A stretch of 59,120 bases of DNA from an uncultured Thiotrichaceae bacterium (GTDB taxonomy: Bacteria; Pseudomonadota; Gammaproteobacteria; Thiotrichales; Thiotrichaceae): positions 1 to 59,120 of the forward strand of contig CACVAY010000148.1 in NCBI GenBank assembly GCA_902727985.1, in the 5' to 3' direction. A program made the translations under genes and the position numbers. The stretch's first letter is position 1; each line of letters starts with the position of its first letter. Positions 3,514-27,256 of the stretch are shown here, in pieces. The notes below the pieces were generated by a model. It did no database searches, was not told the DNA's origin, and worked only from the letters and a program-made list of their open reading frames with translations.

Positions 3514-4015
3514 AGAAGGATCCTCATCCTCCCCCTAATTTCAATCAAAATAGATTAAAATCTGCGATAAAGCGTTGATAAGATTCTTATCCCATTTTTT
3601 ACCAAATAAAAACCATCATCTGTTGATTATTAGGAAAGTAAAGGTCTCTGGCAAGGTGCAACATGCATACTAACAAAACCATACCAGAGACCTCTACCAC
3701 TCTCGCCTTTTACCTGATAGCGCCCCCCCCCTTGGGTTTCCAGTAGAATATGATGAACTCAACCATAATTTATTTCCATCCGCGCTCTTAAAGGAGCCTC
3801 CAGTGACGCAACAGACACAGCCCAAGTCATCTTTATGGATGGTAAGAATAAAGACTGAGCCGAATGTTAAGAAATGTTAAGCATCCTTTACCTGCTCACC
3901 TTTTTTATTCAGTATGTCTGGGATTATACCGTGAGGTCTCCTTCCTTCTGAGCCAGAAAGAGGTTGAAACTCATACACAATCAACACTCTATTTTAGCTA
4001 TGTAATAAAGCCTCA
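3514..4015. other. 502-bp intergenic region with inverted repeat, C9 tract and possible short frame
   Basis: No protein of normal length is encoded. A perfect 10-bp inverted repeat, AGGTCTCTGG at 3642-3651 and CCAGAGACCT at 3684-3693, encloses a 32-nt loop. A run of nine C lies at 3723-3731. A 25-codon frame (GTG at 3803, TAA at 3878-3880) has a good ribosome site (AAAGGAG, 6-nt spacing) and ends inside the TGTTAA repeat. I cannot tell whether it is translated. The operator feeding the OmpA-like gene is listed separately. Confidence 0.5.
3865..3881 (+). promoter_or_regulatory. TGTTAA-N4-TGTTAA direct repeat upstream of the OmpA-like operon
   Basis: TGTTAAGAAATGTTAAG reads forward here, 136 bp upstream of the ATG at 4016, with the same 10-bp period as the copies near 2036, 9720, 23539 and 25694. 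A weak -10-like TATGTC (3913-3918) lies about 33 bp downstream, close to the spacing seen at 23539. Confidence 0.5.
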
Positions 4016-5053: not shown

Positions 5054-5055
5054 AT

Positions 5056-6660: not shown

Positions 6661-6771
6661 GGAATGCATGTTAATTGAATACAGATATCGATCTGAGATT
6701 CTCTTTTTTACCATCAACGTATTCTGCAACTGCAACCGCATTCGTTGCTCAACGATGTATACTTTTGTTCT

Positions 6772-9735: not shown

Positions 9736-9826
9736 ATACAATAGGTCAGCCAGGTTGATTCAAGCTTGACTCAAATTTATGAAATAACAGATACTGTCTA
9801 TTCATAAATATAATTTGGAAAATATT

Positions 9827-10048
9827 ATGGAAACTCAAGCTGCAACAAACGTAACCGGGCACTTGGCTACTATCGGTACAGCGGGTAAGACTTTTATCTT
9901 AGCACACCCAATGGGCATGGCTATCACAGGTGGCGCACTATTAGGTATAGGTGCTTATTACACGACTAGCAAATTATTCAAAAAGAAGACTGAAACCCAA
10001 ATTGAAAAAGAAGAATCTGAAGTACAGGAAACGGCTGTAGCGGCTTAG
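9827..10048 (+). CDS. Short Gly/Ala-rich single-pass membrane protein, copy 2
   Basis: A 73-residue paralogue of the protein at 2936-3169. METQAATNVTGHLATIGTAGKTFILAHPM is followed by a Gly-rich membrane helix (about 29-47, GMAITGGALLGIGAYY), the basic stop SKLFKKK and a Glu-rich tail. The ATG at 9827 matches the paralogue's METQ start; an upstream TTG is less likely. The gene stands alone behind a copy of the shared direct repeat and is followed by a strong hairpin. Function unknown. Duplication plus shared control suggests a regulated membrane component. Confidence 0.75.
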   Translation: METQAATNVTGHLATIGTAGKTFILAHPMGMAITGGALLGIGAYYTTSKLFKKKTETQIEKEESEVQETAVAA

Positions 10049-10204: not shown

Positions 10205-11188
10205 GTGGAAAGTAACAACATAGCCACTACCCAGCCAATATTCAAACGCTGGTTGCGGCGTAAAATACCGCTTTTGATGGTTCTGTTGCTCATCACAGCA
10301 CTCATCACTACCTTTTTTTGGCAGCGAATTGTCATAACCGTTGAATCTGGCCAGGCTGCCATTCTATTCAAGCGATTTAGTGGTACGGAGATAGATAGAG
10401 TTTACGAAGAAGGCTTACATATTTTCAGCCCACTCGATGATGTCTATATTTATGAAGTCCGTAAACAGGTTGCCCTCCACGACTTTGATGTTATTTCAAA
10501 CAAGGGGTTAACCGTCCACTTATCCATGGCAATACGCTATCGCCCTGAATACGATTTGCTAGGGATTCTGCATCAAAGTATTGGGCCAGACTATTTACAA
10601 CGGGTTATTTTGCCTCAGATTGAATCCGTCATGCGGAAACAACTGGGTAGTTACACTGCCGAACAAATCTATACGAATGAAGCTGGGCTATTGACCAAAG
10701 CTATTCTTACAGCTTTAGATGAGGTTGGTCGTAACTATGTGGAAGTAGAAGATATCATTATCCGGAGCATCATATTACCAAAGCAGATGGTCACGGCGAT
10801 TGAAAATAAGCTAAAACAGCAAGAACATATGAAGTCCTATGAATTCCGCATGCAAACTGCAGAAAAAGAAGCTGAGCGACTGGAAATTGAAGCGAAAGGT
10901 ATACAGACTTACCACAGCATCATTAGCGAAAGCCTCTCAGAGCCTACTCTAAGACTTAAAGGTATTGAAGCAACCAATGCCCTAGCCAAATCAAACAATG
11001 CCAAAGTGGTTATCATTGGCTCAGGAAAAGACGGCTTACCTATTATCCTAAATACAGATACTGCAACGCCTACTGAAACGAGTACCAAAAACGAAAAAAC
11101 ATCAACAGACACCGGTAATGCTAATTCATTTGGAAAACCAGCACCAAAAGATGCCCCCCAAAAAGGTGCTTCTGGTATTCAACAATGA
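10205..11188 (+). CDS. SPFH/prohibitin-like membrane protein
   Basis: A 327-residue protein. Residues about 20-42 (PLLMVLLLITALITTFFW) are a membrane anchor, followed by an SPFH/band-7 domain (about 45-235) with VESGQAAILFKRFSGTEIDRVYEEGLHIFSPLDDVYIYEVRKQ and the long helical segment KQQEHMKSYEFRMQTAEKEAERLEIEAKGIQ. The tail is Lys/Thr/Ala-rich and disordered. SPFH proteins build membrane microdomains or cap membrane complexes. The start is a GTG without a clear ribosome site, so it is provisional. The next gene overlaps by 4 bp, making this the first gene of the operon running to about 19.7 kb. Confidence 0.85.
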   Translation: MESNNIATTQPIFKRWLRRKIPLLMVLLLITALITTFFWQRIVITVESGQAAILFKRFSGTEIDRVYEEGLHIFSPLDDVYIYEVRKQVALHDFDVISNKGLTVHLSMAIRYRPEYDLLGILHQSIGPDYLQRVILPQIESVMRKQLGSYTAEQIYTNEAGLLTKAILTALDEVGRNYVEVEDIIIRSIILPKQMVTAIENKLKQQEHMKSYEFRMQTAEKEAERLEIEAKGIQTYHSIISESLSEPTLRLKGIEATNALAKSNNAKVVIIGSGKDGLPIILNTDTATPTETSTKNEKTSTDTGNANSFGKPAPKDAPQKGASGIQQ

Positions 11189-13071
11189 GTCAACAGAAGC
11201 ACCTTGTCTTTAGGGTAATGCTGCTAACCCTCTTACTATCAGGATGCAACCGGGATTTTGCGGGCATGGCTGAACAGCGCATGGCTTATTCCCGCGTCAA
11301 CCAAAGTGATATTGAAATTGTTGCGATTCAGGATCTAATGGGAAGTAATTATGTTAAAGGTATTTTAACGGCGGCAGACGAGATTAATCAACGCCCAGGG
11401 AAACTATTAGGGCGTTCACTAAAAGTGAATATTGAACAAGAACGGTCAACGGTCTCAGACACGAAGAAAATCGTTCGGCGTATTGTTGCAAACCCGAGAA
11501 TTACTGCCGTCTTGGGGCATCGCAGTTCCTCTGTGGCTATTCCTGCCTCAGTGATTTACGATCGTAGTCAGATTATCTTTATGCCTCCTTTCTCTACAGC
11601 AAAATCATTGACAGGACATAATTTCGATTACGTATTTCGTATGGTGCCCAGTAACAAAATTATGGCTGAGCAGTTAGCGCATGTTGCCAAAACCCTGGGC
11701 ATCCAAAATATCGTCGTACTTTATGCGCGCGATGAGCTAAGCCGCGAATTGGCATTCCTCTTTGAAAATGCGGCTCTGAAACAAGGTATCAATCTGGTTA
11801 AGCGCTCATCCTTTTATGATAAGGAGACCAACTACCGTCCTACTATTTCTCAATTCAGCAGTGAAACGTTTGAGGCAGTTTTTATAGCATCACCAGCCGC
11901 TCCAGCGGCACTCATGGCCACACAGCTAAGAGAAATGGGTATTGAACAACCCATTCTCGGCAATGATTCATTGAATCATTTGTCCTATAAACAACGTGCA
12001 GGAGAGGCTGCAGAAAACACCATTGTTCCTTCTATCTACAGACCTGATAAAAATAGCATCATCAGTCAGAAATTTCTTCGACATTATCAGGCTAAATACA
12101 ACACTAAACCTGACTATAATGCCGCTCAAGGGTATGACTCGCTTATGTTGCTGGTAGCCGCAATAGAACAAGCTGGCTCTACACTTGCTCCGCTACTTTC
12201 CTCAACGCTGCACTTTATGCCTGCCTGGGTAGGCGTTACAGGTATACATGCCTATGATCAGACGGGTGAAATGCAGGGCAAGAAGTATTTCTTCAAAGTC
12301 GTAAAAGAAGGGGAATTAAAAGACCTTCCTGCTATCCACGTTCCTTATTTATTAGAACGATTTGAAAAAGGTCTGAAAGATTCACTGATAAAATCCTCTA
12401 TTGACAGAGAGCTAACAGACTTTTCAAAAGTCTTTACCGAACGTTTACATGAGGATGACCATAAAACATACCTGCTTGATCTCGCTCAGGAAATCTTGGG
12501 CTTCAAACGTATTGGTATTATTTATGAAAACACGGTTGACGGACGTCGAGCATCAGATTATCCACTACTCGCGGCTCTAGCAAGCAGAAAAGAGTTGACT
12601 ATCATTCATTGTGAAATTCCCTTTTCGATTTTGGAGAAAACAGAAATTGAGCAAGCAATAATTGCCTGTTACGGCAAATTATCCCTGGAAGTCGATGCTA
12701 TGTATATTCCTCCTTATCGCGGAATAGACAGCAAACTGAGCCAACAACTTAACAGCAGTCTGGCATTTTTCAAGATACCCGCCATATCGCTAGATGAGCG
12801 TAATGATGACCCAAATATCAGCTTGGTACTCGGCAAACGCTCTGATGTAGACCAACAAAGCATGAATTCCATGCAGGTCTATAACAACCTGCTAAACGGC
12901 TTAAAAGTCCATGAGTTTTCTGAACATCTTCAAAGCTTACCAGAAATCACCCCAAACCTGAGCAATCTGCAACGCTATGGTTTACCGGATAAAGCCATTC
13001 TCGACTTATCACCCGATGGCTTCCTCTATTCTGATGATAGAGTGCAAAGTCAGGCGCAAGGCAAACCATGA
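11185..13071 (+). CDS. Lipoprotein with two periplasmic-binding domains
   Basis: A 628-residue lipoprotein with signal MSQQKHLVFRVMLLTLLLSGC (lipobox LLSGC, Cys21). Residues about 38-370 form a type I periplasmic-binding domain like branched-chain amino-acid receptors (VAIQDLMGSNYVKGILTAADEINQRPGKLLGRSL ... ITAVLGHRSSSVAIPASVIYDRSQIIFMPPFST ... YNAAQGYDSLMLL). Residues about 415-600 look like a second, ABC_sub_bind-type domain (EILGFKRIGIIYENTVDGR ... VDAMYIPPYRGIDSKLSQQL). Such doubling is unusual. It overlaps the SPFH gene by 4 bp and the next gene by 4 bp. No importer permease is in the cluster, so a sensory role is more likely than uptake. Confidence 0.82.
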   Translation: MSQQKHLVFRVMLLTLLLSGCNRDFAGMAEQRMAYSRVNQSDIEIVAIQDLMGSNYVKGILTAADEINQRPGKLLGRSLKVNIEQERSTVSDTKKIVRRIVANPRITAVLGHRSSSVAIPASVIYDRSQIIFMPPFSTAKSLTGHNFDYVFRMVPSNKIMAEQLAHVAKTLGIQNIVVLYARDELSRELAFLFENAALKQGINLVKRSSFYDKETNYRPTISQFSSETFEAVFIASPAAPAALMATQLREMGIEQPILGNDSLNHLSYKQRAGEAAENTIVPSIYRPDKNSIISQKFLRHYQAKYNTKPDYNAAQGYDSLMLLVAAIEQAGSTLAPLLSSTLHFMPAWVGVTGIHAYDQTGEMQGKKYFFKVVKEGELKDLPAIHVPYLLERFEKGLKDSLIKSSIDRELTDFSKVFTERLHEDDHKTYLLDLAQEILGFKRIGIIYENTVDGRRASDYPLLAALASRKELTIIHCEIPFSILEKTEIEQAIIACYGKLSLEVDAMYIPPYRGIDSKLSQQLNSSLAFFKIPAISLDERNDDPNISLVLGKRSDVDQQSMNSMQVYNNLLNGLKVHEFSEHLQSLPEITPNLSNLQRYGLPDKAILDLSPDGFLYSDDRVQSQAQGKP

Positions 13072-13985
13072 AACACCATGCCCTGCTCTTTGTCGCTTTG
13101 TTGACATGCTCTTTGCTAATGAATGTGCAAGCAGATGAAAAAGCACAGAAAAAACTTTATTTCGGCATTGAAAATAACAGAATTCCCTATAGCAACCTGG
13201 ATGATAAACAACAGCCTTATGGGGCGCTCATCGATGCCACCCGACATATCTGTAAAAACATTAAGGCAGAGTGTGAATTTGTTCCCGGTGATTTTGACCA
13301 GCTTATGCAGGATGTACAGACTTATAAACTGCAAGGGTTAATCGTTATAGATACATTTCTGCTTCCGGAAACTGACAGACTCAAACTAACCCCTGCATTA
13401 TGCAAGATTCAACCCGTTTTTATCCAAAAAAGACAAGGGAAACACAGATCCCAAAAAGAAGACTTTAAAAATACGACCATAGGTGTCTTGGAAGGATCAT
13501 TGCTGCACTTTTACCTGTTAGACGAATACAGCAACCATTCACGTATCAAGTCTTATCCACTGCTTGAAAGTGGTGTATTTGATCTATTTTCCGGAAGAAT
13601 TACAGCTCTTTTTACTGATCAGGCTTTTTTCACTGAAAGGGTTAAAAAGACACTTTTTGGGAATGAAGAAAAAGAATTTTCCATGATAGCTATGAAGACT
13701 ACAAAGATCACACTCCCGGACACCAGTATGAGACTGGCATTAAGAGAACAAGATAACGAATTATATGAGGAACTGACCAAAGTGATTCAAGCACAAGGGA
13801 AAACTCCTGCCTGTATTGACTTGCTGACATCATCCAAACCATCAACGCCAGTAATATCCATAACCGAACCGCCGTTACTTGAGAATCCTCCCAGACCGAT
13901 GACCCCAACAACTAACGTCAATGACCTTAAAAAAGTACAACCTAAAACTGAGCAATTAGCTCCAAAAACAGCCCCAAAAGAATGA
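13068..13985 (+). CDS. SBP_bac_3-type periplasmic binding protein
   Basis: A 305-residue secreted protein with signal peptide MKHHALLFVALLTCSLLMNVQA. The body (about 25-250) looks like an amino-acid-type extracellular binding protein (LYFGIENNRIPYSNLDDKQQPYGALIDATRHICKNIKAECEFVPGDFDQLMQDVQ). The C-terminal 50 residues are a Pro/Thr/Lys-rich tail, perhaps disordered or wall-associated. It overlaps the preceding lipoprotein gene by 4 bp. With the neighbouring two-domain lipoprotein it adds a further ligand-binding module to an operon with no importer. Confidence 0.8.
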   Translation: MKHHALLFVALLTCSLLMNVQADEKAQKKLYFGIENNRIPYSNLDDKQQPYGALIDATRHICKNIKAECEFVPGDFDQLMQDVQTYKLQGLIVIDTFLLPETDRLKLTPALCKIQPVFIQKRQGKHRSQKEDFKNTTIGVLEGSLLHFYLLDEYSNHSRIKSYPLLESGVFDLFSGRITALFTDQAFFTERVKKTLFGNEEKEFSMIAMKTTKITLPDTSMRLALREQDNELYEELTKVIQAQGKTPACIDLLTSSKPSTPVISITEPPLLENPPRPMTPTTNVNDLKKVQPKTEQLAPKTAPKE

Positions 13986-13998
13986 GGAAATTCTGCAA

Positions 13999-15828
13999 AT
14001 GACCCTAACCCAGCGTTTACCATTCATTATTTACCCTCTACTGATTTTGGGACTCAGTTTGTTGCCACTGTTTAGTGGCAATCCACTGCATGCTAAAACG
14101 GACAGCGACACAGCCGCTTCAAAAACCTCTGACCAAACCACACAAAAAAATGAGGATAAATCTGCTGACGACGATAATGCAGAAAGCGCCACATCGGAAG
14201 CCGAGTCACAAATTGAAGACAGCATGGCTAACATTGAGATTATCCAGCAAACCCTTGAAGCATTACGTTCAGAAATCGAAAATAGCAAGGAAAAGACCAG
14301 TCTCAACCGCAGTAGTGTAAAAACTATCAAAGAAGGGCTTGAACTGATTGACGAAAAGCTAAAAGAAGCCTATAGCGGCTTGGATGAAAGTAAAACCGGC
14401 ATTAACACTAACACCAAAGCCCTGAATCAAATGGGAAAAAAGTTACTTACCAAGACGAGGGAAATACGTGCCAATGCGGCTGATCTTGTTTCACAAAAAT
14501 CGTTGATTGAGGATAACTCTATTCGCCTCTATGAACTACTGATCCAGATTAGTAATACAAGCGATAAAGTAGAAAGGCTTGCAAATGCCTTGGATAGTGT
14601 TAAAAAAACGGACTACACAAAAAAACTAAAAACTGAAGTTTACACCAATATCAATAAGCTATGGATGCTTCTATCTATTATTCTGGTTTTTCTCTCTCCC
14701 CTCGCGTTTGTCCTCTCTAGTAATCGTAATCAGTATAAACCGCTAACTGATGGTATCGCACAACACCAAGGTGTATTGATGGTGTGCCTTACCGTCTTTC
14801 TAGGTTTCTTTACCATTGGTTTTGGCCTGATGTATGGCACAACATCTTCAGGCTTGATTGGCACAACAACCTATCTGCTAGAAAATGTAGCCACCGACTC
14901 TTCTATAACCCCTATACAAACAAACAGGCCCTTTACTGAATTTGTGCTTTATCAGGCAGGTTTTGCCATGTTAGCTGCCATGATTGTTTATATGACGGTG
15001 GGTAGGCAACTTTCCAGTACTAAACACATGCTATTGGCACTCTTTGTTGGTGCGGTACTGATTCCTGTATTCGGACACTGGACGTGGAGCAGCCATTTCG
15101 TCACTGGCAATTTGGGATGGCTTGAAGGTGCCGGTTTTATCGATGAAGCAGGCTCCATTACCATCAATACAGTAGCAGCCTGCTTTGCTCTTATCATTAT
15201 CATAAAGCTTAGTCGCTCCTCCCCTCCTCCTCATCGCGCTGATCAAGAAGTTGATGACCCCGTGTATTCAACCAGCGCTGTTCTGATACTGTGGCTAAGT
15301 TGGCTAGGTTTTACCACAGCGACGTTGCCCATTGATGACGAGCAAATATCCACCCTTATGCTTAATGTTGGTTTAGCAGGCTCAGCTGGGGGATTGAGCG
15401 CATTCTTACATTACGCTTTTTTCTCAAACCCGAACAACCGTATAGCCAGTGGCCTTGGTGGCTTTGTCTCCGGTTTAGTAGCCATTGCAGCCTGTGCCCA
15501 AAGTGTTACGTTTGCAGAAGCCGCAGTGATCGGAGCCAGTGCTGGCCTGCTGCAAAACTTCGGATTCAGTTTTCTGCGTAAAACCTATCTTAAACAAGCC
15601 TGGCAAACGAGAGCTGCACATCTGATCGCTATTCATGGTGTTGGTGGTATCTGGGGAGCATTGTGCGTTGGCTTGTTGGCTCCAGAAGGTAACTTTGGCC
15701 CACTAAACATCAGTCAACTGGTTATTCAAACTCAGGGAATTGCAGCTGCCCTGGTCTATAGTTTTGTGATGGCAAACATCATCATGTTTGTACTAAATTT
15801 TCGCAGAAAAACAACCACACCCTTATAA
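13999..15828 (+). CDS. Ammonium-transporter-like membrane protein with periplasmic coiled coil
   Basis: A 609-residue protein with a signal sequence at about 7-32, an Asp/Glu/Lys/Ser-rich linker, and helical coiled coil at about 65-205. About eleven hydrophobic helices (from about 220) follow that resemble Amt/Rh: GAGFIDEAGSITINTVAA aligns with the Amt segment around E. coli AmtB Asp160-His168, and IHGVGGIWGALCVGLLA with the segment around His318. Asp382 and His546 are kept, but the first pore histidine is Asn390. Loss of one twin-His residue suggests altered conduction or a sensory role. GAGGAAA lies 7 nt before the ATG. It is 13 bp after the binding-protein gene. Amt-fold assignment is fairly sure; function is not. 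Confidence 0.75.
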   Translation: MTLTQRLPFIIYPLLILGLSLLPLFSGNPLHAKTDSDTAASKTSDQTTQKNEDKSADDDNAESATSEAESQIEDSMANIEIIQQTLEALRSEIENSKEKTSLNRSSVKTIKEGLELIDEKLKEAYSGLDESKTGINTNTKALNQMGKKLLTKTREIRANAADLVSQKSLIEDNSIRLYELLIQISNTSDKVERLANALDSVKKTDYTKKLKTEVYTNINKLWMLLSIILVFLSPLAFVLSSNRNQYKPLTDGIAQHQGVLMVCLTVFLGFFTIGFGLMYGTTSSGLIGTTTYLLENVATDSSITPIQTNRPFTEFVLYQAGFAMLAAMIVYMTVGRQLSSTKHMLLALFVGAVLIPVFGHWTWSSHFVTGNLGWLEGAGFIDEAGSITINTVAACFALIIIIKLSRSSPPPHRADQEVDDPVYSTSAVLILWLSWLGFTTATLPIDDEQISTLMLNVGLAGSAGGLSAFLHYAFFSNPNNRIASGLGGFVSGLVAIAACAQSVTFAEAAVIGASAGLLQNFGFSFLRKTYLKQAWQTRAAHLIAIHGVGGIWGALCVGLLAPEGNFGPLNISQLVIQTQGIAAALVYSFVMANIIMFVLNFRRKTTTPL

Positions 15829-15840
15829 GGAATATCAGCA

Positions 15841-17478
15841 ATGAAAGTCCTGAATTTCATGACTCAGGAAACAGATGCAGAAAAAAAGCGCATCTTGCTC
15901 TTGGCAGCAATTTCAGGTATTACCAATAGTTTTCTGCTGGTTCTCCTGAACCATGCTGCGACACAATTAGAAAATGGAAGCATAGAAGCACAGCTTTTGT
16001 TCCAATACATTATCACTTTTGTATTATTTATTTTTGCGCAGCGTAGTTCACAACGTGAATCCGTGACAGCCGTTGAAACAGCATTACAGAGAGTGCGAGT
16101 GCGTATTGCCAACAAGGTCAGACGCAGTGAATTACGCACCATTGAAGAATTGGGAAATATCGGGACGTATTCATCACTGACTCAAGGAGCCAGCACGGTT
16201 GCTCAAGCCGTTATGTATTTAGTCAAAGGCATAGAGTCCCTCTTTGTTCTGATATTTGCCAGTTTATACCTGTTATGGTTATCACCCGTCAGTTTTCTTA
16301 TGGCCAGTATTTTAATAGGGCTTGCTATTCCCTTATTAATACGTCATTACCATCGCACATTCAGTGAGCTATCTGAAGCTTCGCAGAAAGAAGGGATATT
16401 CTTTGAGAATTTCACCGCCATGCTGAAAGGTTTTAAGCATTTGAAAATCAATCAGCGAGAAAGCGAGGCCATGTTTTCGAATATCAATCAGCTAGCAACT
16501 GAAACAGGGGTTCTAAAAAGCCGTTCCAACGTGCGTCTTTTAGAAGATGTTCTGCTATCTAATGTCACCTTTTATTTGTTGTTATTACTGGTTGTTTTTA
16601 TATTACCCAACTTCATCCCTGCACATGAAGAAAACCTGTTTCAAGTGATTACTACTATTTTGTTTATGATAGGGCCTATCTCAGCCGTGGCCGCTGCCTT
16701 ACCCAATGTGTCAAAAACCAATGTGGCCATCAGTAACTTGTATAAACTTGAAGAAAGACTGGATAAAAACCTATCAGAAGAGAAAGAAAGCAAAGCCGTC
16801 GAACCTTTTGACGCATTTAACACTATCACCCTGAAGAATGTCTGTTTTACCTATACAAATACCGAGGGAGAACCACTCTTTGATGCAGGTCCTTTTACCC
16901 TGAGCTGCAAACGCGGGGAAATCCTATTCATCACAGGCGGAAATGGCAGTGGTAAGTCAACTTTCCTCAAGTTACTAACGGGCTTGTACTATCCTCGACA
17001 AGGCCACATTTATATTGATCAACGACAAATTCCAACCCAAGACTACCCAGTTTACCGAGAGCTGTTTTCAGTCGTTTTCAGCGATTTCCAGTTATTTGAT
17101 CATCTATATGGCCAAACTGATGCATCAAAAATAGAAATCCAGCAAGAAATAAACGCATGGTTGGAAAAACTTGACCTCAGCCACATCACGCATTTTGAAG
17201 ATGGGCGTTTCACCAACACTGATCTATCGACGGGGCAGAGAAAGCGTCTCGCCTTGATTATTGCCTTGATACAGCATCGCCCTATTCTGGTTTTTGATGA
17301 ATTAGCCGCTGATCAGGATCCAAAATTCCGCAAGCTTTTTTATGAGGATATTCTTCCAGAATTAAAACAACAAGGTAAAACCATTATCTCAGTAACGCAT
17401 GATGACAAATACTTCGGGGTTGCCGACCAGGTTCTGTCTATGAATAATGGCCAACTGGATAGAGAAGCCTTCAGATGA
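15841..17478 (+). CDS. SyrD/PvdE-type cyclic-peptide export ABC transporter
   Basis: A 545-residue half-transporter: six-helix exporter domain (about 15-310) fused to an ATPase (about 325-545). Walker A is GGNGSGKST, the signature LSTGQRKRLAL, and Walker B ILVFDELAADQDPKFR. The D-E-x-A-A-D-Q-D-P sequence is characteristic of the SyrD/PvdE family, which moves nonribosomal peptides or their precursors across the inner membrane. AAGGAA precedes the ATG. The downstream hydrolase overlaps by 4 bp. As with PvdE and the acylase PvdQ in pyoverdine maturation, export and periplasmic trimming could be coupled here; that comparison is inference. Confidence 0.9.
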   Translation: MKVLNFMTQETDAEKKRILLLAAISGITNSFLLVLLNHAATQLENGSIEAQLLFQYIITFVLFIFAQRSSQRESVTAVETALQRVRVRIANKVRRSELRTIEELGNIGTYSSLTQGASTVAQAVMYLVKGIESLFVLIFASLYLLWLSPVSFLMASILIGLAIPLLIRHYHRTFSELSEASQKEGIFFENFTAMLKGFKHLKINQRESEAMFSNINQLATETGVLKSRSNVRLLEDVLLSNVTFYLLLLLVVFILPNFIPAHEENLFQVITTILFMIGPISAVAAALPNVSKTNVAISNLYKLEERLDKNLSEEKESKAVEPFDAFNTITLKNVCFTYTNTEGEPLFDAGPFTLSCKRGEILFITGGNGSGKSTFLKLLTGLYYPRQGHIYIDQRQIPTQDYPVYRELFSVVFSDFQLFDHLYGQTDASKIEIQQEINAWLEKLDLSHITHFEDGRFTNTDLSTGQRKRLALIIALIQHRPILVFDELAADQDPKFRKLFYEDILPELKQQGKTIISVTHDDKYFGVADQVLSMNNGQLDREAFR

Positions 17479-18884
17479 CTACCATGCGTTTTTATTACCT
17501 CTTCTGCTTGAAAAGCTGTGTTTTGTTCATCGCCTACTCTAGTGTGTATGCGGGGCCAACATCTCCCCCTCAGACTGGAAAGATACCTATCATCCATATT
17601 TATGCAGACACACTACCCTCTACCGATATCGGACTAGAAACAGGACGCCAGACAAAAGCCCTTTTTCCCGATATCGAACATCGTTACGATCAACATCTTG
17701 CCACAATCATTAAGCCCTCCCAATACCAGCAGCTACTAGAACAAAATCTACCTACATTGCTGAAAAATATGGATCAGGCTTATCGGGAAGAACTCGATGG
17801 TGTAGCCAGCGCATGGCTCTTGACTCGCACCAACAAGCTAGGGGATGGCTTGCTGTCACTGGATGAATATCATTTATTGAACCTGTTACCCGACCTGGGA
17901 ATGGCTCCGGATGGTTCCGGTTTAGGCGTTATGGGCAAGGCATCAGGGGAAAACGGCCCTATTGTGGGGAGAAACATGGATTGGTCCAGCAGCCCTGAAT
18001 TACGTAGCCTGCAAACCCTGACCGTCTATCACTATAGAGATAAAACCATTGTAAATATTGGGTTTGCGGGCATCCTTTCCATGATGACAGGCTTTAATGA
18101 TCAAGGCTTATTCCTTGCTTATTTCAATACTGAAGCTTATTCACCCTATCAACAGACATACCAGCCACCAAAAAATGTACGTTCTGCCGCCTTCGAAACC
18201 CGCAAGGCACTAGAAAATAGCCACTCTATTAAACAGGCTAGTCACCTACTTTCCAAACAAGCATTTGGATTCAGTCATGCCATTCTGATGGCAGATAAAA
18301 AGACTGTTCAGGTACTAGAATACCCGGCAAATGGAACGGCAAAAATCCGCACTTGGGATAGTGCGACCCACACTAATCGACCTTGGAATCGAACTCAGCA
18401 AATTGGGGTTGTCGATTGCCATCTACTAGCAACACTGCCCAATAACTGTAACCTTGTAAAAGATAGCTATCACTGGGAGCGACTGCGTGACATGGCGCAA
18501 TTCAGCCCTTCTCAACCAGCCAATGTACAAACGGTTTCACAAATTCTGTTTGATACTGCCAACGCAAGCTATGAGATCTTTAATCAATATACTCTGGAAT
18601 CCCTGATTTTCTTGCCCGTTAGTGGTAGCTTGTATCTGTATACCACACCAATGAACGGCACTCATCCCTCCTCCCCCATACACCAACCATACCTTGATCT
18701 ACTCCCCACTAAGCATCGCCATAAATCCAGTAAATATGACCTTAATTTTACCCTATATTCCTGGTTGCTCTTACTGACAATGGTCGGTATTGCTGTGTGG
18801 GTATCCTTAACACCGTCAAAGATAATTATATTTCATATGGGCTTTAAAAAATTTAAAGAACGACTCGCATCAATTTTAAAATAA
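17475..18884 (+). CDS. Membrane-anchored C45/choloylglycine-hydrolase-like protein
   Basis: A 469-residue protein with signal peptide (about 5-27), a periplasmic body and one C-terminal membrane helix (about 424-448, LYSWLLLLTMVGIAVWVSL). The body resembles Ntn-type linear-amide hydrolases of the C45/acyl-CoA:6-APA acyltransferase group: a helical pro-region ending LLSLDEYHLLNLLPDL, then DGSGLGVMGKASGENGPIVGRNMDW (147-170), then a beta-rich body. The family has a Cys nucleophile about seven residues before the G-x-A-[ST] element. Here that site is Gly147 followed by Ser148, so activity is doubtful or Ser-based. It overlaps the exporter by 4 bp. Confidence 0.7.
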   Translation: MTTMRFYYLFCLKSCVLFIAYSSVYAGPTSPPQTGKIPIIHIYADTLPSTDIGLETGRQTKALFPDIEHRYDQHLATIIKPSQYQQLLEQNLPTLLKNMDQAYREELDGVASAWLLTRTNKLGDGLLSLDEYHLLNLLPDLGMAPDGSGLGVMGKASGENGPIVGRNMDWSSSPELRSLQTLTVYHYRDKTIVNIGFAGILSMMTGFNDQGLFLAYFNTEAYSPYQQTYQPPKNVRSAAFETRKALENSHSIKQASHLLSKQAFGFSHAILMADKKTVQVLEYPANGTAKIRTWDSATHTNRPWNRTQQIGVVDCHLLATLPNNCNLVKDSYHWERLRDMAQFSPSQPANVQTVSQILFDTANASYEIFNQYTLESLIFLPVSGSLYLYTTPMNGTHPSSPIHQPYLDLLPTKHRHKSSKYDLNFTLYSWLLLLTMVGIAVWVSLTPSKIIIFHMGFKKFKERLASILK

Positions 18885-18969
18885 CGCCACTCACACAGTA
18901 CTGGCAGTGTTAATCAATTCTCGTATGCTGACTATGCAATCAGAACGCTACAGAAAAATCACCGAATAA

Positions 18970-19719
18970 ATGCACACATCATTTATTTCTCAAGTTGGAG
19001 ACACCAAGATTTATCAAAGCTTGAAGGATGGAGAAATACACATTTTCCTAGCACATCCAGACTATGTTGAATCCTCAGATGAAAGTTTGCTAAACGCAAC
19101 AGAGCGCTCCCGGGCGAGTGCATTTAAGTTTTTCAGCGATCGTAAGCGCTATGTGGCGGCACACAGTTTCCTGCGTCAAACATTAAGCAAATATGCTCCA
19201 CTTCTACCAGCAACATGGCGATTTACCACCAATGGCTATGGCAAACCTAGCATTGCAAACAACGGATATGAATGGTTGCAATTCAACCTTTCACACACTC
19301 ACGGGTTGATTGCCTGTGCCATCAGCTACCAACGAGAAGTAGGGATTGATGTTGAAAAACGGAAGGCATTAATGGATCTAGAGTCCCTGTGTCAATACGC
19401 TTTTTCGGCCCCAGAAGCTGCTGATATATTATCACTTGCGAACCTACAAGCACGGGAGCAACGCTTTTTCACTTACTGGACCTTAAAAGAGGCCTATGTC
19501 AAGGCACGAGGCATGGGTTTATCTATTCCTTTACAACAATTTACGTTTATTGAGGGAGTGAATAAGGAATGGTCTTTACACTGTGACCCGGCACTTCAAG
19601 ACGATGGAAAAAACTGGCAGTTTTCTTCTTATATAATGAATGATCATCACTTGTCTATCGGGGTACCTATTGATCCTGCTATCATGACATCAAGGATGAG
19701 ATTTAATCGACTCTTCTAA
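18970..19719 (+). CDS. Sfp-type 4'-phosphopantetheinyl transferase
   Basis: A 249-residue enzyme that would attach the phosphopantetheine arm of CoA to carrier proteins. Signature regions are present: WLQFNLSHTHGLIACAI, VGIDVEKRK (Mg-binding Asp/Glu) and FFTYWTLKEAYVKARGMGL (W-x-x-K-E-[AS]-x-x-K). The Sfp type usually serves secondary-metabolite carriers rather than only the fatty-acid ACP. It lies 85 bp after the hydrolase gene and converges on the adenylation-decarboxylase gene. No carrier-protein domain is visible in the window, so its substrate must lie elsewhere. Confidence 0.9.
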   Translation: MHTSFISQVGDTKIYQSLKDGEIHIFLAHPDYVESSDESLLNATERSRASAFKFFSDRKRYVAAHSFLRQTLSKYAPLLPATWRFTTNGYGKPSIANNGYEWLQFNLSHTHGLIACAISYQREVGIDVEKRKALMDLESLCQYAFSAPEAADILSLANLQAREQRFFTYWTLKEAYVKARGMGLSIPLQQFTFIEGVNKEWSLHCDPALQDDGKNWQFSSYIMNDHHLSIGVPIDPAIMTSRMRFNRLF

Positions 19720-19741
19720 AGGCCGGAACATCCAAGTGCAA

Positions 19742-19767
19742 GCTGGCTTGGTATAAACCAGCAAGCC
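19742..19767. terminator. Alternative hairpins between converging genes
   Basis: GCTGG/CCAGC (19742-19746 with 19758-19762) and GGCTTG/CAAGCC (19745-19750 with 19762-19767) are mutually exclusive stems in the 54-bp space between the transferase and the adenylation enzyme. A bidirectional terminator is plausible, but no U run is present. Confidence 0.3.
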
Positions 19768-19773
19768 CCAGAC

Positions 19774-22700
19774 TCATGCTTCCTTATAGAGTCGCTGATT
19801 AGCTGCACTAACATGACTCGTCAATAAAACATTTTTCTTAATTTTTCCACCGAGTGTCAAAGGCATCTTGTCAAGAACTCGATATGCACGCGGTCTCATT
19901 TTCTCCTGTAGCCTTTTATTAGCAAACTCTTTTACCCAATCAAATTTCTTCGAAGAAGCATGATTATTAGTAAACTCTAGGTAAGCGACTAAGTACTTGG
20001 TACCCGATTTATCTGCTTCCACTAAAATAGCACAGTGCTTTATATGCGGTATTTCAAGGAAGAGCGATTCAACTTCTGAAATCTCAATCCTGTTTTCACC
20101 GATTTTGACCAGATCATCAACACGACCAAAATATTCAAAATGACCATTCGCCAATTCTCTGCCCCGATCTCCTGTACGAAACATGGTAGCTTCCGCGACA
20201 TCGGCAAAAGGATCAGGAAGAAAACGATCCCCCCCCTTTTCTTCTTGGTGAAAATACCCTTTGGATACAGCTGATCCTCCGATATAAATCTCACCTGCTT
20301 TGTTTTTAGCCACAGGTTTCAAGTTCTCATCAAGAATATAAACAGAGCAATTTGGCAAGGGTTTCCCAATTGGAATAAATGAATCCTGATCTTCTTCTTT
20401 GATAATACTTTCAGAAAACGCATCGGCAAGTGATGCAGTGATTCCCAGCGCCTCTTTGTCAGCTTCTAACTCATGAATATTTTTATCGCCACAGACCACG
20501 TTGGCTATCATAAGCTGGTTTTCAAGCATTTCAAAAATATCTGCCTGAGTCGTGAGAGGATTAGCAATAATCACCCGGAACACCGTAATCTGGCATTCAT
20601 TTCCATAACGTGTGTTTGTGAGCGTTGTCTTTGAAGCAAATGTTGAGCCTTGCAGAAATTGTGTTTCTTGAATCTTTGCGTTGATGGCATTGATGTGCAA
20701 ATTATCTTCAGCGCACAAGGTATTAGTCGTAACTTTTTGACGGTAGCTTTCCGGAATATAACGATAGTTGACAATATTCATCGGCGGATCAAACAACAGC
20801 TCAAAACAGCCTAGTGATTTTATAATACCCGCAACAAATACAGCCTTGTCGATACTAGCATTGAACAAAGCACCATAACCTTTCCTACCAATTAACTGTA
20901 ATGATGCATGTAACAACAGGGCAATAGCAGACCGAGAGCCTTCCAGGCTGAAACGTCCTGTATCATAACTATCTGGAGCCGCTTGATAAGTAGCGGTGGT
21001 TGCTCCGTAGGATAATATATCTGGATCACGAAACAGACACATGCTAATCCCTTGCGGAAGATAAAACTGCTTGTGTGCACAAAACGTAATGGACTGGGCG
21101 CGTTCCACCCCCTTAAACCGATGTAAATAGCGGTCAGAAAATAACCCTGCCCCTCCCCATGCTGCATCCACATGGAAGTAAATATCGTGTGTATCGGCAA
21201 TATCAGCCATTTGTTCCAGAGGATCAATATGGCCGGTTTCAGTCGCACCAGCAATGCCCACCATTGCAAACACCAATAAACCGTTATGCTTACAATAATC
21301 CAACTTCTTTTTTAGATCTTCAGCATCCAGGGCACCTGTTGAGTCAAAATCAACATAGATAATATTGCTCTTTCCTATTCCTAAAACCATGGCTGCTTTC
21401 TGCATGGAATAGTGCATTAATTTTGATCCAAGTATCACGAGATCCTTATATCCACTCGATTGCAGTATCGAATGCATACTCTCACTCTCCAAACCGTCAC
21501 CTTTTGATAAGCGAGCCAAGGCCTGATTTCGAGCAATCATCAAGGCAGTAATATTGGAGATAGACCCGCCACTGGTCACTAAGCCCAGATTCCGGTTCGG
21601 TGTCTGAATATTTTCTTCATAGAATGTGTCGGATAAACCATAGAAACACTTATGTAACATTGCCAGCGCTTCTCTTTCGACGAAAATAGCCGACTTGGCG
21701 GTTTCAACTTTCACCATATTCTGATTCATCTGCGAAATCAGCTTACTCATATCATGAACGAAGTCAGGTAACGCTGAAGTCATATGCCCGATATACAAAG
21801 GCGAAGCAATATTGATCAAGTAAGGCGTCACTTCTTTGGCAAACCAGTCAAAATACTGCACCATACTGACTGGATACTCAGCTATTTCCGTATTTGTAAA
21901 ATGTTCAGCCAACTCATCAACTGGTACATTGGGTGTCGTTATCTGGTTCCCAATCGGAATACTATGCCTTTTTAAATGATCATCTGTATGACCACGAGGC
22001 AGTAAATCTACCGCTCTGGAAAAATAGGATAGTACGTTATCAACATCGAAACGCTTGACTTCATACCATGTGACATCTGCACTGACTTCAGTAGTGCCAT
22101 AAATATTAATCAAGCGTACCGACTTGAAGCGCTGATAGAAGAGACTGGCGACTGATGTGGATAAGGCCTCGCCACTACAAAAAACATATTTGAGATAAGG
22201 TAAATGAAAAACCAATTCATGAGGTACGGAAAGTATGGATCTGAGTAATGAAGGAGAGAGCGTTATGCGGGTGATTTTTTTTCGTCCTAACGTCTGCACA
22301 AGTTCTTCAGCTTCATGAGCTTGAGTATTAGAGAGAATATGCAATGCCGTTCCAGCCAGCAAAGGGGAAAATATTTCCGCCACATGATCAACAAAGCTGA
22401 TTGAAATTCGTTGACATGCAACCTCGTTCATTGCAAACGGGTATTCCTGCCGAGCCCAGGCCAAACGATTCATAATCCCCCTGTAGGTACCTTGCACAGC
22501 CTTAGGGTGACCGGTCAATCCCGATGTATAGATGATATAGAGTAAATTGTCTTCTGTGATTTCAATGGCAGGATTGCGAGTAGACTCTTTTCCTACAAGC
22601 GGCCAATCTGAATCAACATTAATGATACTTAAATCATCTTTCTCAATATTATTATCCAGCTCTTCACGCGTAATACAGATATGAGCCATACAATCATTCA

Positions 22701-22998
22701 GAATCAGATTTACCTGTTCAGGAGGCATATTTGAATCTATCGGAACATAAGCACCACCTGATTTAAGAATCCCCAGCAGCGCAATAATACATTCCACCGA
22801 ACGATCCAGATACAATGCAACAAATACTTCTGATCCAACATCATGATGACGTTGCAGATAGTGAGCCATCTGATTCGCTTTACGATTTAATTCCTGATAA
22901 CTAATGGTATCGGTGCCACAGGAAACCGCCATTTCATTCGGGGTCTTTTCTACTTGCTCTTCAAATATTTTGCTCAGTGAGCGAAATTTCTGCTTCAT
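19774..22998 (-). CDS. Adenylation domain with an embedded PanP-like aspartate decarboxylase
   Basis: A 1074-residue enzyme. Residues 1-312 are the N-terminal part of an NRPS adenylation domain (A3 YTSGLTGHPKA at 157-167, A5 NIYGTTE at 298-304). Residues about 313-870 are a complete PLP group II decarboxylase most like PanP (aspartate to beta-alanine): SPLYIGHMTSALP near 400, HVDAAWGG with Asp611, and PLP lysine Lys643 in CAHKQFYLPQG. The adenylation domain then resumes (IPIGKPLPNCSVYILDE at 875-891, GEIYIGG, FRTGD, GRVDDLVKIGENRIE at 958-972, catalytic Lys1052). The pocket aligned to GrsA PheA reads VDATFSIADK, like the remembered beta-alanine code. No carrier or condensation domain follows. 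AGAGAAG precedes the ATG. Confidence 0.88.
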   Translation of the reverse strand: MKQKFRSLSKIFEEQVEKTPNEMAVSCGTDTISYQELNRKANQMAHYLQRHHDVGSEVFVALYLDRSVECIIALLGILKSGGAYVPIDSNMPPEQVNLILNDCMAHICITREELDNNIEKDDLSIINVDSDWPLVGKESTRNPAIEITEDNLLYIIYTSGLTGHPKAVQGTYRGIMNRLAWARQEYPFAMNEVACQRISISFVDHVAEIFSPLLAGTALHILSNTQAHEAEELVQTLGRKKITRITLSPSLLRSILSVPHELVFHLPYLKYVFCSGEALSTSVASLFYQRFKSVRLINIYGTTEVSADVTWYEVKRFDVDNVLSYFSRAVDLLPRGHTDDHLKRHSIPIGNQITTPNVPVDELAEHFTNTEIAEYPVSMVQYFDWFAKEVTPYLINIASPLYIGHMTSALPDFVHDMSKLISQMNQNMVKVETAKSAIFVEREALAMLHKCFYGLSDTFYEENIQTPNRNLGLVTSGGSISNITALMIARNQALARLSKGDGLESESMHSILQSSGYKDLVILGSKLMHYSMQKAAMVLGIGKSNIIYVDFDSTGALDAEDLKKKLDYCKHNGLLVFAMVGIAGATETGHIDPLEQMADIADTHDIYFHVDAAWGGAGLFSDRYLHRFKGVERAQSITFCAHKQFYLPQGISMCLFRDPDILSYGATTATYQAAPDSYDTGRFSLEGSRSAIALLLHASLQLIGRKGYGALFNASIDKAVFVAGIIKSLGCFELLFDPPMNIVNYRYIPESYRQKVTTNTLCAEDNLHINAINAKIQETQFLQGSTFASKTTLTNTRYGNECQITVFRVIIANPLTTQADIFEMLENQLMIANVVCGDKNIHELEADKEALGITASLADAFSESIIKEEDQDSFIPIGKPLPNCSVYILDENLKPVAKNKAGEIYIGGSAVSKGYFHQEEKGGDRFLPDPFADVAEATMFRTGDRGRELANGHFEYFGRVDDLVKIGENRIEISEVESLFLEIPHIKHCAILVEADKSGTKYLVAYLEFTNNHASSKKFDWVKEFANKRLQEKMRPRAYRVLDKMPLTLGGKIKKNVLLTSHVSAANQRLYKEA

Positions 22999-23697: not shown

Positions 23698-24321
23698 ATG
23701 ACCTACGAATCTGTAGACCAGCAGCCAGAAAAACCCAGCAATAATACAGCTCAGGAGTCTCAAACAGAGTGTGAGACTTCAGTAAATATTTCACCTGATG
23801 AAATGGAGGCTGTGATTAATGAAACCGTGGAAATTGCGGCTAACAATATTGTCAAGAATCACATAATTGCTAGTATTACCTTAGGTCTGGTCCCTATTCC
23901 GCTATTTGATCTTGCCGCCCTTACTACCACCCAGATGAATATGCTACGTAGTCTTAGTGAGCTTTATGATGTGCCTTTTGAAGATTCCAATAGCAAGTCA
24001 TTAGTTACCTCTCTCGTCGGTGGTTCATTGCCAGTTCTGGGCGTGCTTGGCTTGAGCAGTTTTGCGAAACTGATTCCAGGCATAGGCAGTCTGGTTGGCA
24101 GCGCAAGCCTGAGTATTACTGCTGGCGCTGTTACCTATGCTGTAGGACAAGTGTTTATCATGCATTTTAGCGAAGGCGGCACACTCGACGACTTTAATCC
24201 AAAGCAAGCACAGGTATATTTCAAACGAGAATTTGAAGCAGGAAAAACCTTTGTACAGGATATAAAAGATGAAGTGAAAGCGATGAAAGCAGCCAAAGAG
24301 CCTGAGTCGGGCGACAGTTGA
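23698..24321 (+). CDS. DUF697-like membrane protein, copy 3
   Basis: A 207-residue paralogue of 154-612 and 6079-6660. An acidic, polar N-terminus (about 1-55) is followed by the family core NHIIASITLGLVPIPLFDLAALTTTQMNMLRSLSELYDVPFE, the Gly/Ser hydrophobic region with LIPGIGSLVGSASLS, and the tail GGTLDDFNPKQAQVYFKREFEAGK. The Pro-Asp pair in the first hydrophobic segment (PIPLFD) is kept in all three copies and suggests a re-entrant or interface role. It stands behind a copy of the shared direct repeat and is followed by the PotD-like gene after 135 bp. Confidence 0.78.
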   Translation: MTYESVDQQPEKPSNNTAQESQTECETSVNISPDEMEAVINETVEIAANNIVKNHIIASITLGLVPIPLFDLAALTTTQMNMLRSLSELYDVPFEDSNSKSLVTSLVGGSLPVLGVLGLSSFAKLIPGIGSLVGSASLSITAGAVTYAVGQVFIMHFSEGGTLDDFNPKQAQVYFKREFEAGKTFVQDIKDEVKAMKAAKEPESGDS

Positions 24322-24456
24322 CCAGTTCCTATTTTTAAGACTTTCTTCAACTAACCACCACTACGTCATAATTTCAGATATTATTCATATCGTCTCTCCT
24401 CTGTAGAAAATAGAAGCAGATGGATGGGAAGCACATTGAGGAAAGGGGCAAACGAT

Positions 24457-25509
24457 ATGCGGTATACATTCTTTTTTATAAGTATGATTTTTATATTTAC
24501 GGTCAAACCCGTACTGGCCCTGGGTGCGACAGTAGGCGTTGAAGAAAAGGTTATTGTTTATAACTGGTCAGATTATATCCCTGAAGGAGTGTTGGACAGT
24601 TTTACTGAAGAAACAGGGATCAAAGTCGAATACTCCACCTATAACAATAACGAAATCATGTACCAAAAACTCAAACTATTGAAGGGCAGAGGCTATGATA
24701 TTCTTGTACCTTCAACCTCTCTAGTAGACAGGATGCGAAATGAGGGCTTGATACAACCCATAAATCATACAAAGCTTGAGAACTTCAAACTACTTAATCC
24801 TAGCTTATTAAATAAGTTTTATGACCCTAATAACGAGTTTAGTATTCCTTATCTTTGGGGGAGCACTGGCATAGCGGTTAATGCGAAAAAAATTGACCCT
24901 GAAAAGGTACAAAGCTGGGAAGATCTATGGCATGTACAATGGCGAAACCAGATATTATTGACAGATGATATGCGTGATGCTTTTGATATTGCATTAAAAG
25001 TTAATGGCCACTCCATCAACACCACCATTCCCGAGGAAATCAAACAGGCCTTCGAGAAACTGCGTAGCTTGATGTCTAATGTTAAAATGCTTAGTGTCGA
25101 ACCTCGGATACCATTCCAGTCTGGCGACATTAATTTGGGCGTCATTTGGAATGGCGAGGCTGTAACAGCACATGCTGACCAATCATCAGTCCAGTATATT
25201 TACCCCAAGGAAGGCGCTAGTTTCTGGGTGGATAGCTTTGTTATTCCAGCCCGCGCAATGAATGTGGAAAACGCCCATAAGTTTATTGATTATATGTTGC
25301 GTCCTGATGTTGCAGCACGTTGTGTGGAAGATTTAGGCTATGCAACACCCAATCTGGCAGCCAAAGCACTTCTTGATAAAAAAACACGAGAAAACCCCAC
25401 TATTTTCCCTCCCTATGATGTACTCAAAAAAGTAGAGTTCAAGAGAGACATAGGGAAGGCAATGGAGCTTTATATGCTCTATTGGGGGAAACTGAAAACT
25501 CAGGGTTAG
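24457..25509 (+). CDS. PotD-like spermidine/putrescine-binding protein
   Basis: A 350-residue periplasmic protein. The ATG at 24457 has an excellent ribosome site (AGGAAAGGGG); an in-frame ATG at 24424 has none. Signal peptide about 1-21. The mature protein begins with the family hallmark KVIVYNWSDYIPEGVLDSFTEETGIKVEYSTYNNNEIMYQKL, followed by YDILVPSTSLVDRM, FSIPYLWGSTGIAVN, GVIWNGEAV and FWVDSFVIPARAMN. No potABC permease or ATPase genes are adjacent, so it may serve a distant importer or act as a ligand sensor partner. Polyamine binding follows from the family; the exact ligand is unknown. Confidence 0.87.
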   Translation: MRYTFFFISMIFIFTVKPVLALGATVGVEEKVIVYNWSDYIPEGVLDSFTEETGIKVEYSTYNNNEIMYQKLKLLKGRGYDILVPSTSLVDRMRNEGLIQPINHTKLENFKLLNPSLLNKFYDPNNEFSIPYLWGSTGIAVNAKKIDPEKVQSWEDLWHVQWRNQILLTDDMRDAFDIALKVNGHSINTTIPEEIKQAFEKLRSLMSNVKMLSVEPRIPFQSGDINLGVIWNGEAVTAHADQSSVQYIYPKEGASFWVDSFVIPARAMNVENAHKFIDYMLRPDVAARCVEDLGYATPNLAAKALLDKKTRENPTIFPPYDVLKKVEFKRDIGKAMELYMLYWGKLKTQG

Positions 25510-26617: not shown

Positions 26618-27160
26618 ACCCGCTCAGCCATCAACGTATTACGCAAATACTGGACGGTGCATTCGCTTCCTTGCAGGGGGGCCCTGCCAAACAGGATTAC
26701 ACCAATGTCGTGAAAGCAATGCCGCTGGAATCCAGCGAACTGTGGCCAGTCCCGGTAACTCTAGATGTACCCGCCCACTTTGCGTAAGCTCTGCAACCCG
26801 GTCAACAGATTGCACTACGCAACTTGGAATTTGTCGTCATCCCCCTATGTCAGGATAGTTACCGACATTTGGCAACCGGATAAGTTATACGAAGCTCAAC
26901 AGATCTACGGCACGACCGCCAATGTACCCGCGACAACAAACGCAGACCTTCCAGCTGTTACGCGAACTGGAGGCCACTCTTGTTACTACATTCCACCGCG
27001 ATCTTTGCGCTGTGGTTTGATCAAGCAATTCACTGGCATCAACGATACATATGAAATACCAGAGAACCCTGAATTACGGTTGCACACTAAGGAAATTTCA
27101 GCGGATGAATCCGCTCACCAATTGCTGCCGAAGCTGGGGGTATATCACAAAATAAACGCC
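26618..27160 (+). pseudogene. Decayed sat-cysC (ATP sulfurylase/APS kinase) gene
   Basis: One frame reads QRITQILDGAFASL..., then MPLESSELWPVPVTLDVPAHFA, a stop, and ALQPGQQIALRN, the N-terminal domain of ATP sulfurylase (usual form: LWP-PVTLDV...L-PGQ-IALRD). A second frame continues with VTDIWQPDKLYEAQQIYGTT, the next sulfurylase segment. From about 27010 the same frame gives IKQFTGINDTYEIPENPELR and LHTKEISADESAHQLLPKLG, the C-terminus of APS kinase (CysC). Most of the sulfurylase and the kinase P-loop are missing, with at least one frameshift and several stops. The order matches fused Sat-CysC enzymes. It cannot make a working product. Confidence 0.8.
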
Positions 27161-27256
27161 CGAAGAAGTTTATGCTGAACAGGTAAAAGCTGCATGAATT
27201 TAGGGGTGGCACTTGTGACTAAAATTCGGGCTTTTAAACACTAGAAATAGAAAAAT

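Follow-up and report, generated by a model that had tools for sequence, protein, structure and literature searches.

Jamaicamide contains beta-alanine. In its pathway, the protein JamL (UniProt Q6E7J8) has an A-PLP-A arrangement, in which a pyridoxal phosphate (PLP)-dependent decarboxylase domain (PF00282) lies inside an adenylation (A) domain; the role of this type of embedded decarboxylase is called unclarified in the relevant section of a survey (PMC3870968). Other interrupted adenylation domains carry methyltransferase, oxidase, monooxygenase or reductase inserts, placed at a8-a9 or a2-a3 in the pertinent parts of two reviews (PMC11355689, PMC8949500), and a flavin-dependent monooxygenase insert between a4 and a5 is known as well (PMC10204066). 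In primary metabolism, the PLP decarboxylase DVU0867 of Desulfovibrio vulgaris was reported to replace PanD, as determined by E. coli panD complementation (PMC10102598). For the balhimycin exporter Tba, an SPFH paraslipin was detected beside the exporter by proximity labelling, and the authors speculate on a membrane microdomain (PMC11960670). Here, a stretch of 59,120 nt from an uncultured Thiotrichaceae bacterium (contig CACVAY010000148.1; hereafter the window) was analyzed. It carries a gene for an adenylation domain into which a PLP decarboxylase is inserted (hereafter the chimera; 1074 aa, 19774..22998, minus strand; AMP-binding and Pyridoxal_deC) next to a plus-strand membrane/periplasm module (10205-18884). 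These two parts of the window are joined by history. We give even chances to the reading that an assembly-line locus has survived in parts in the window, and that the decarboxylase half of the chimera would now supply beta-alanine for pantothenate and coenzyme A.

Architecture and relatives of the chimera

The gene product had been introduced in a preliminary description of this DNA as an adenylation-decarboxylase. Both domains were indeed present, but the decarboxylase was found to sit inside one adenylation domain, and the two are not arranged in tandem. The N-terminal adenylation section (aa 1-316; 22051..22998, minus strand, as for all sections) holds the pocket letters VDATFSIAD, the inserted PanP-like decarboxylase (aa 357-833; 20500..21930; TIGR03799, 480 bits) contains the motifs HVDAAWGG and CAHKQ, and the C-terminal adenylation section (aa 874-1058; 19825..20379; AMP-binding_C) contains the conserved GK lysine. 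The insert is located between the adenylation motifs at aa 298-304 and aa 902-916, which we take to be A5 and A6. Adenylation core motifs were identified on both sides of the insert and are mostly kept in the window copy, with deviations in A8 (GENRIE) and A10 (GGKIKK). No condensation or carrier domain was found within the 1074-aa chain.

The A-PLP-A arrangement itself is not new, since it is described for JamL (PMC3870968), to which the chimera can be likened by its PF00282 domain inside PF00501. As far as it is described there, JamL is a large polyketide synthase (PKS)/nonribosomal peptide synthetase (NRPS) whose chain also includes condensation and carrier domains, whereas the chimera is free-standing in a host in which no condensation domain was found. 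With the interrupted adenylation domains covered in the cited review sections it shares a nested second catalytic domain; it differs from those in that the insert is a decarboxylase and is located at A5/A6 instead of a8-a9 or a2-a3. The passages available from the janustatin, bolagladin and kasichelin literature mention no embedded decarboxylase.

The PLP-site motifs of PanP are HxDAAWGG and HK. The corresponding HVDAAWGG and CAHKQ are kept in three of three chimeras, namely those of the window and of the genomes G029 and G244 (the window's own genome being G000 in the comparison set). The best family of the decarboxylase was PanP (TIGR03799), with 480.1 bits for the window, 505.3 for G029 and 474.9 for G244 at a cut-off of 606.1 bits; a stand-alone PanP reached 821. 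The insert is thus similar to PanP in its best family and unlike PanP in that it scores under the cut-off and is nested in an adenylation domain.

For the distribution analysis, 63 genomes of the order and a wider class sample of 369 genomes were used. Full-length relatives of the chimera were found in G029 (62% identity; 2 of 63 genomes of the order including the window) and in G244 (59%; 2 of 369 of the class sample including the window), and ten more genomes of the class sample gave a decarboxylase-like match only. Among 72,556 plasmid records, 15 match at E<=1e-60, none of them spanning more than 80% of the query. A contig scan with two peptide patterns resulted in one unrelated adenylation match and is a weak guide to absence. 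In the decarboxylase tree, from which two sequences (L037, L091) without the motif used for the choice of the open reading frame (ORF) were left out, the three chimera inserts group together (100/100). Next to this group stand plasmid-borne decarboxylases of Nostoc, Gloeocapsopsis and Paenibacillus (83/77, with one long branch); two of these three are annotated, both among NRPS/PKS genes, and the Nostoc stretch has no annotation. In all three chimera pairs, the identity of the decarboxylase (0.66-0.72) is higher than that of the adenylation part (0.52-0.56).

The adenylation code for beta-alanine is VDWVISLADK, a string for which a literature search gave no match. With pocket letters placed by motif, the pocket reads VDATFSIADK in the window, VDAVFSVADK in the G029 chimera and VGVTFSIAGK in the G244 chimera. 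The window pocket matches the code in 6 of 10 letters, and the best other adenylation match of the chimera, an in-line adenylation domain of G029 (VDWVVSLADK), matches it in 9 of 10. The nearest named adenylation domain (42%, pocket GDAVFSLADK) is encoded on a plasmid of Nostoc sp. ATCC 53789, within a cluster (NZ_CP046706.1), presumably that of cryptophycin, which carries an aspartate decarboxylase gene. The two loci resemble each other in adenylation domain, pocket and decarboxylase, but in Nostoc the decarboxylase is a separate PanD-annotated gene, whereas it is an insert in the window. A Ser at position 301, given as one mark of beta-amino-acid adenylation domains in the part of a review that deals with them, is present in three of three chimeras, and the Asp at position 235 that VinN keeps according to the same source (PMC11253843) was not found in them. 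Taken together, the pocket and the relatives of the chimera point to beta-alanine as the predicted substrate. As suggested by family, pocket and context, the decarboxylase insert would turn aspartate into beta-alanine, which the adenylation half, where intact, would activate.

Pantothenate and synthetase genes of the host genome

In the host genome, panD (G000:C126:8914-9149, L086) was found as two fragments with a stop. The break consists of one 106-bp internal deletion compared to both G005 and G029, resulting in a frame shift, and the gene is still well conserved outside the deletion. The genes panB (named by eye) and panC are intact and lie just before the broken panD. Pantothenate genes and PF00282 decarboxylases were compared across ten genomes (G000, G001, G004, G005, G011, G024, G029, G046, G052, G244). 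An intact panD was identified in G001, G005, G024, G029 and G052, it is broken in G000, and the search gave no match in G004, G011, G046 and G244. In contrast to panD, panC was found in all ten genomes, including G244. PF00282 decarboxylases are encoded in six of the ten, and the chimera is the only one in G000, G029 and G244.

In the G244 chimera, both Asp of the pocket are lost and the A3 (YTAGLTGRSK) and A8 motifs are changed, while its decarboxylase motifs are preserved. The 40 kb read around it contain neither a synthetase nor a cassette gene. In the host of the window, the assembly line is lost and panD is broken, and the gene pattern suggests that the decarboxylase half most likely took over the beta-alanine supply. 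At slightly short of even chances, the chimera was captured by primary metabolism: after the loss of assembly line and panD, coenzyme A synthesis in this lineage would depend on it as the sole supplier of beta-alanine, and in the second lineage, that of G244, the adenylation half would already be dying around a working decarboxylase.

In the host genome, a search for condensation domains (E<=0.1) gave no match, although it was positive in 4 of 14 control genomes. For PP-binding (E<=1), three matches were found, none of them in the window. One of these carriers is a 78-aa acyl carrier protein encoded next to genes of the fatty-acid type. Another belongs to a Pls/PosA-type single-module synthetase (L045:7184-11251, contig C141), and the third to a reducing type I PKS (L044:2865-11706, contig C13) that is followed by an aminotransferase-family gene. 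With no condensation domain in the genome and no carrier in the window, nothing seen there can build a peptide from an activated residue. A free-standing carrier or condensing enzyme, for which the preliminary description suggested a search, was not found by these searches in the window, and the peptide-making cassette outlined in that description is only partly supported. A partner assembly line elsewhere in the host genome was likewise rejected, as no condensation domain was found.

The membrane cassette and its association with assembly lines

Seven genes on the plus strand and the converging chimera gene had been proposed as one unit, and ORF calls confirmed their positions and spacing. 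In order, they encode an SPFH/Band 7 membrane scaffold protein (327 aa, 10205..11188; Band_7, 4.5e-24), a Peripla_BP_6 receptor-like periplasmic binding lipoprotein (BP6; 628 aa, 11185..13071; Peripla_BP_6, 1.9e-39), a family 3 solute-binding protein (SBP3; 305 aa, 13068..13985; SBP_bac_3, 1.1e-8), an N-terminally extended Amt-like membrane protein (609 aa, 13999..15828; Ammonium_transp, 5.3e-41), a PvdE/SyrD-type ABC exporter with permease and ATPase (545 aa, 15841..17478; TIGR01194), a C45-like periplasmic protein anchored in the membrane by its C terminus (469 aa, 17475..18884; NF040521) and an Sfp-type phosphopantetheinyl transferase (249 aa, 18970..19719; ACPS, 1e-15). The junctions are −4, −4, 13, 12, −4 and 85 bp (minus denoting overlap), followed by a gap of 54 bp between the transferase gene and the convergent chimera gene. 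Promoter and terminator scans of the stretch gave no usable signal. Profile searches agreed with the earlier family calls at the family level, and no importer permease was found in the cassette.

The exporter passes TIGR01194 for cyclic-peptide exporters (325.9 bits, cut-off 286.2); unlike PvdE/SyrD exporters, it is encoded within an operon of SPFH and binding-protein genes. The C45-like protein passes NF040521 (114.9 bits, cut-off 85). Its nucleophile column, set by hand against acid ceramidase as the nearest solved relative, contains Cys in none of eight orthologues (S,S,S,I,S,S,I,V), so that the hydrolase step assumed before is doubtful and the protein is probably non-catalytic. The twin-His is part of the Amt conduction pore. 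In the Amt-like protein, the first His is kept in two of nine orthologues (N,N,N,N,N,H,S,H,N) and the second in nine of nine, and the score against TIGR00836 (143.5) is under the cut-off of 343.3. Both the Amt-like and the C45-like proteins may be binding or structural proteins. The best NCBIfam of SBP3 is the lysine/arginine/ornithine type, with a score far under its cut-off, and the C-terminal part of BP6 beyond Peripla_BP_6 has no family match. The SPFH protein shares 63-72% identity with seven other orthologues of the order.

Since the Amt and C45 members mostly lack transport or catalytic residues, a role in scaffolding, export and sensing fits better than one in tailoring. The SPFH scaffold would gather the exporter and several periplasmic ligand-binding proteins, and the cassette would export and sense the product of an assembly line. 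In the Tba system, as far as its cluster is described in the cited work (PMC11960670), the SPFH gene is not presented as a part of it, whereas the SPFH gene of the window is co-operonic with the exporter gene.

Scored by its Amt-like gene, the cassette was found in 9 of the 63 genomes of the order. BP6 was found in eight; the two sets differ only by G043, whose contig ends before BP6. The gene order SPFH, BP6, SBP3, Amt-like, then exporter and/or C45-like is preserved among the loci of the order, with BP6 and SBP3 in one reading frame in G050 and SBP3 not called separately in G096. This recurrence of the same block in the same order across genomes is more than chance. SPFH adjoins BP6 in all eight loci. 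Outside the order, BP6 relatives (E<=1e-60) occur in four further genomes of the class sample (G202, G279, G240, G238; the window's own apart), each with an adjoining SPFH gene, and the search on plasmids gave just four remote, partial matches. The C45-like gene is present in eight of nine loci as fetched (exception G052). One exporter per locus was found in all seven loci of sufficient length. It belongs to two subtypes, one encoded within the operon (G000, G011, G029; 59-63% identity) and the other elsewhere in the locus (G024, G046, G052, G096; 64-76%).

The transferase was observed in two of nine loci as read (G000 and G046, the G046 copy with 53% identity) and the chimera in two of nine cassette genomes (G000 and G029). 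The proposed co-conservation of all eight genes therefore holds for the membrane genes and extends to neither the chimera nor the transferase; the third chimera, in G244, without a cassette beside it, likewise speaks against one conserved unit. The expectation that homologues of the exporter, SPFH and binding genes accompany the adenylation enzyme elsewhere was borne out in G029, where a full-length relative lies 29 kb from the same cassette, but in no cassette genome besides this one and G000.

Condensation domains were identified in 7 of the 63 genomes, of which five are among the nine with a cassette (G029, G024, G052, G096, G043) and two among the 54 others (G006, G010). This is in agreement with the biosynthetic context suggested earlier (Fisher p 3.3e-4, uncorrected for kinship; 4 of the 5 are from one genus). 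The nearest synthetase gene is located about 13 kb from the cassette in G029, 17 kb in G024 and 38 kb in G052; in G043 the condensation domains are on a contig other than that of the cassette. In G238 (L123:776-13741), SPFH and BP6 lie directly 3′ of the gene for a 3587-aa hybrid synthetase on the same strand, with a spacing of 11-13 bp. The domains of this synthetase are adenylation, ketoreductase (KR), thiolation (T), ketosynthase (KS), acyltransferase (AT), dehydratase, KR and T. The G029 line is intact (A-T-KS-AT-KR-T plus C-A-T-C-A-T-TE, with C for condensation and TE for thioesterase), and chimera, cassette and line are located within about 41 kb, the chimera lying inside the assembly-line cluster. 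Besides the chimera, this hybrid cluster (G029:C1:3225726-3252251; L119, L021) encodes two synthetases and a PALP enzyme, together with amidinotransferase-, carbamoyltransferase- and radical-SAM-like genes recognized by eye.

Several genes recur around the cassette. A DUF697 membrane protein (23698..24321, plus strand; PF05128) and a PotD-like solute-binding protein (24424..25509, plus strand; PRK09501, 383.8 bits, cut-off 582 not reached) adjoin it in the window, and genes of each kind were found in eight of nine loci. The DUF697-like proteins amount to 24 in total across these eight loci, and three paralogues flank the cassette in the window (154-612, 6067-6660, 23698-24321). A small Gly-rich protein with a hydrophobic stretch (77 aa, 9815..10048, plus strand; without Pfam family) is encoded 5′ of the cassette. 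Its homologues occur in four of nine loci (G000, G029, G046, G050), 5′ of SPFH in G240 and close to SPFH in G279; a second copy in the window (2939-3133) shows 63% identity to a G050 protein over 65 aa. P-type ATPase-like genes were identified in six of nine loci, the remnant in the window left out of the count. The encoded proteins (L021:2890-5046, L023:7968-10019, L081:9877-12099 and similar) have a short Gly-rich N-terminal membrane stretch, truncated forms also recur, and the CPC metal motif is absent by eye. In relatives this gene lies near the cassette, and the window keeps a 24-aa piece (3784..3855, plus strand; 71% identity to the G029 protein, E 5e-5). A Sat/CysC-like gene is a broken remnant in the window (26647..27175, plus strand), with tblastn identities of 73% over 64 aa and then 35% over 109 aa in a second frame; in G029 and G024, full-length frames lie close to the cassette, the name resting on an APS_kinase trace and inspection by eye. 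In addition, the window encodes response regulator-like and Hpt-like (both by eye), OmpA-BON, coiled-coil and binding-domain histidine kinase-like proteins (839-1933, 4016-5967, 6745-9675), relatives of which are found near the cassette in other genomes.

Alternative explanations and significance

It could be argued that all eight genes still cooperate. In this case, beta-alanine would be both produced and activated by the chimera and passed to a carrier that the transferase has primed, and the resulting small beta-alanyl amide would leave the cell through the exporter, with the binding proteins as its sensors. In favour of this, none of the eight ORFs is interrupted, the window copy of the chimera largely retains its adenylation core motifs, exporter and transferase genes are adjacent, and G029 has related pieces near an intact line. 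The host genome has no detected condensation domain and three PP-binding matches, none in the window; the chimera occurs in two of nine cassette genomes and the transferase could serve the other carriers of the host, which makes such cooperation quite unlikely. Ebony and Tan form a beta-alanyl amide pair. An analogous pair of chimera and C45 hydrolase was rejected, as neither a carrier nor any other additional domain is present in the chimera and the nucleophile is missing from the C45-like protein. A pyoverdine-like maturation by the latter protein was set aside for the same reason. The cassette could instead be a platform for membrane domains or efflux in general, made up of SPFH, DUF697, P-type ATPase, PotD-like and two-component genes, that lies near clusters by accident, with the chimera as an unlinked neighbour. 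The frequencies of DUF697 and PotD-like genes (each 8/9) and P-type ATPase-like genes (6/9) compared to the chimera (2/9) are in line with this, as are the cassettes of G011 and G046 without condensation domains. We regard it as rather improbable, given the cyclic-peptide-family exporter in seven of seven long-enough loci, the synthetase linkage in G029, G024 and G052 with the head-to-tail arrangement in G238, and the association of 5/9 versus 2/54 stated above. A further explanation is that the chimera is a decaying leftover of a lost cluster, coenzyme A receiving its beta-alanine from another route or from outside, and that the panD deletion arose recently or is an artefact of assembly. Neighbouring genes are remnants, relatives lacking both panD and PanP-like enzymes exist, and the good conservation of panD outside the deletion would indicate a young loss. 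The fully open 1074-aa frame, the intact decarboxylase motifs and the identity of 0.66-0.72 to the other chimeras do not fit well with decay, nor does G244, which keeps the decarboxylase while losing adenylation residues; this explanation thus appears to have a minor chance.

Several observations weigh against the reading of a surviving assembly-line locus with a captured decarboxylase. The 106-bp deletion in panD is known from one assembly. G004 and G011 have no panD match, and the PF00282 proteins that they encode resemble diaminobutyrate or glutamate decarboxylases instead of PanP, so that relatives can lack panD without having a chimera; G046 has neither a panD match nor a PF00282 protein. 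PF00282 proteins are present in two of five genomes with intact panD compared to four of five without, which is no clean separation, and G244 is 87% complete, so that its panD may be unsequenced. All three chimeras are under the PanP cut-off, and another substrate is possible. The adenylation half of the window is mostly intact in sequence, and activation may therefore still matter. Pyrimidine or polyamine breakdown, or uptake, are other possible routes to beta-alanine. Concerning the cassette, the Fisher test is not phylogenetically independent, the condensation domains of G096 are more than 2 Mb from the cassette, and no condensation domain was found in the cassette genomes G011, G046 and G050 (G046 81% and G050 74% complete).

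The chimera represents an embedded decarboxylase of the JamL type in a form that stands free and has no carrier, and the SPFH-exporter-receptor operon suggests a membrane-domain organisation of assembly-line export. If the proposed capture is true, three stages would be visible, with the chimera in a cluster in G029, freed with a broken panD in the genome of the window, and with a decaying adenylation half in G244. An enzyme of natural-product synthesis would then have replaced an essential gene of a vitamin pathway, in a case that is open to direct testing.

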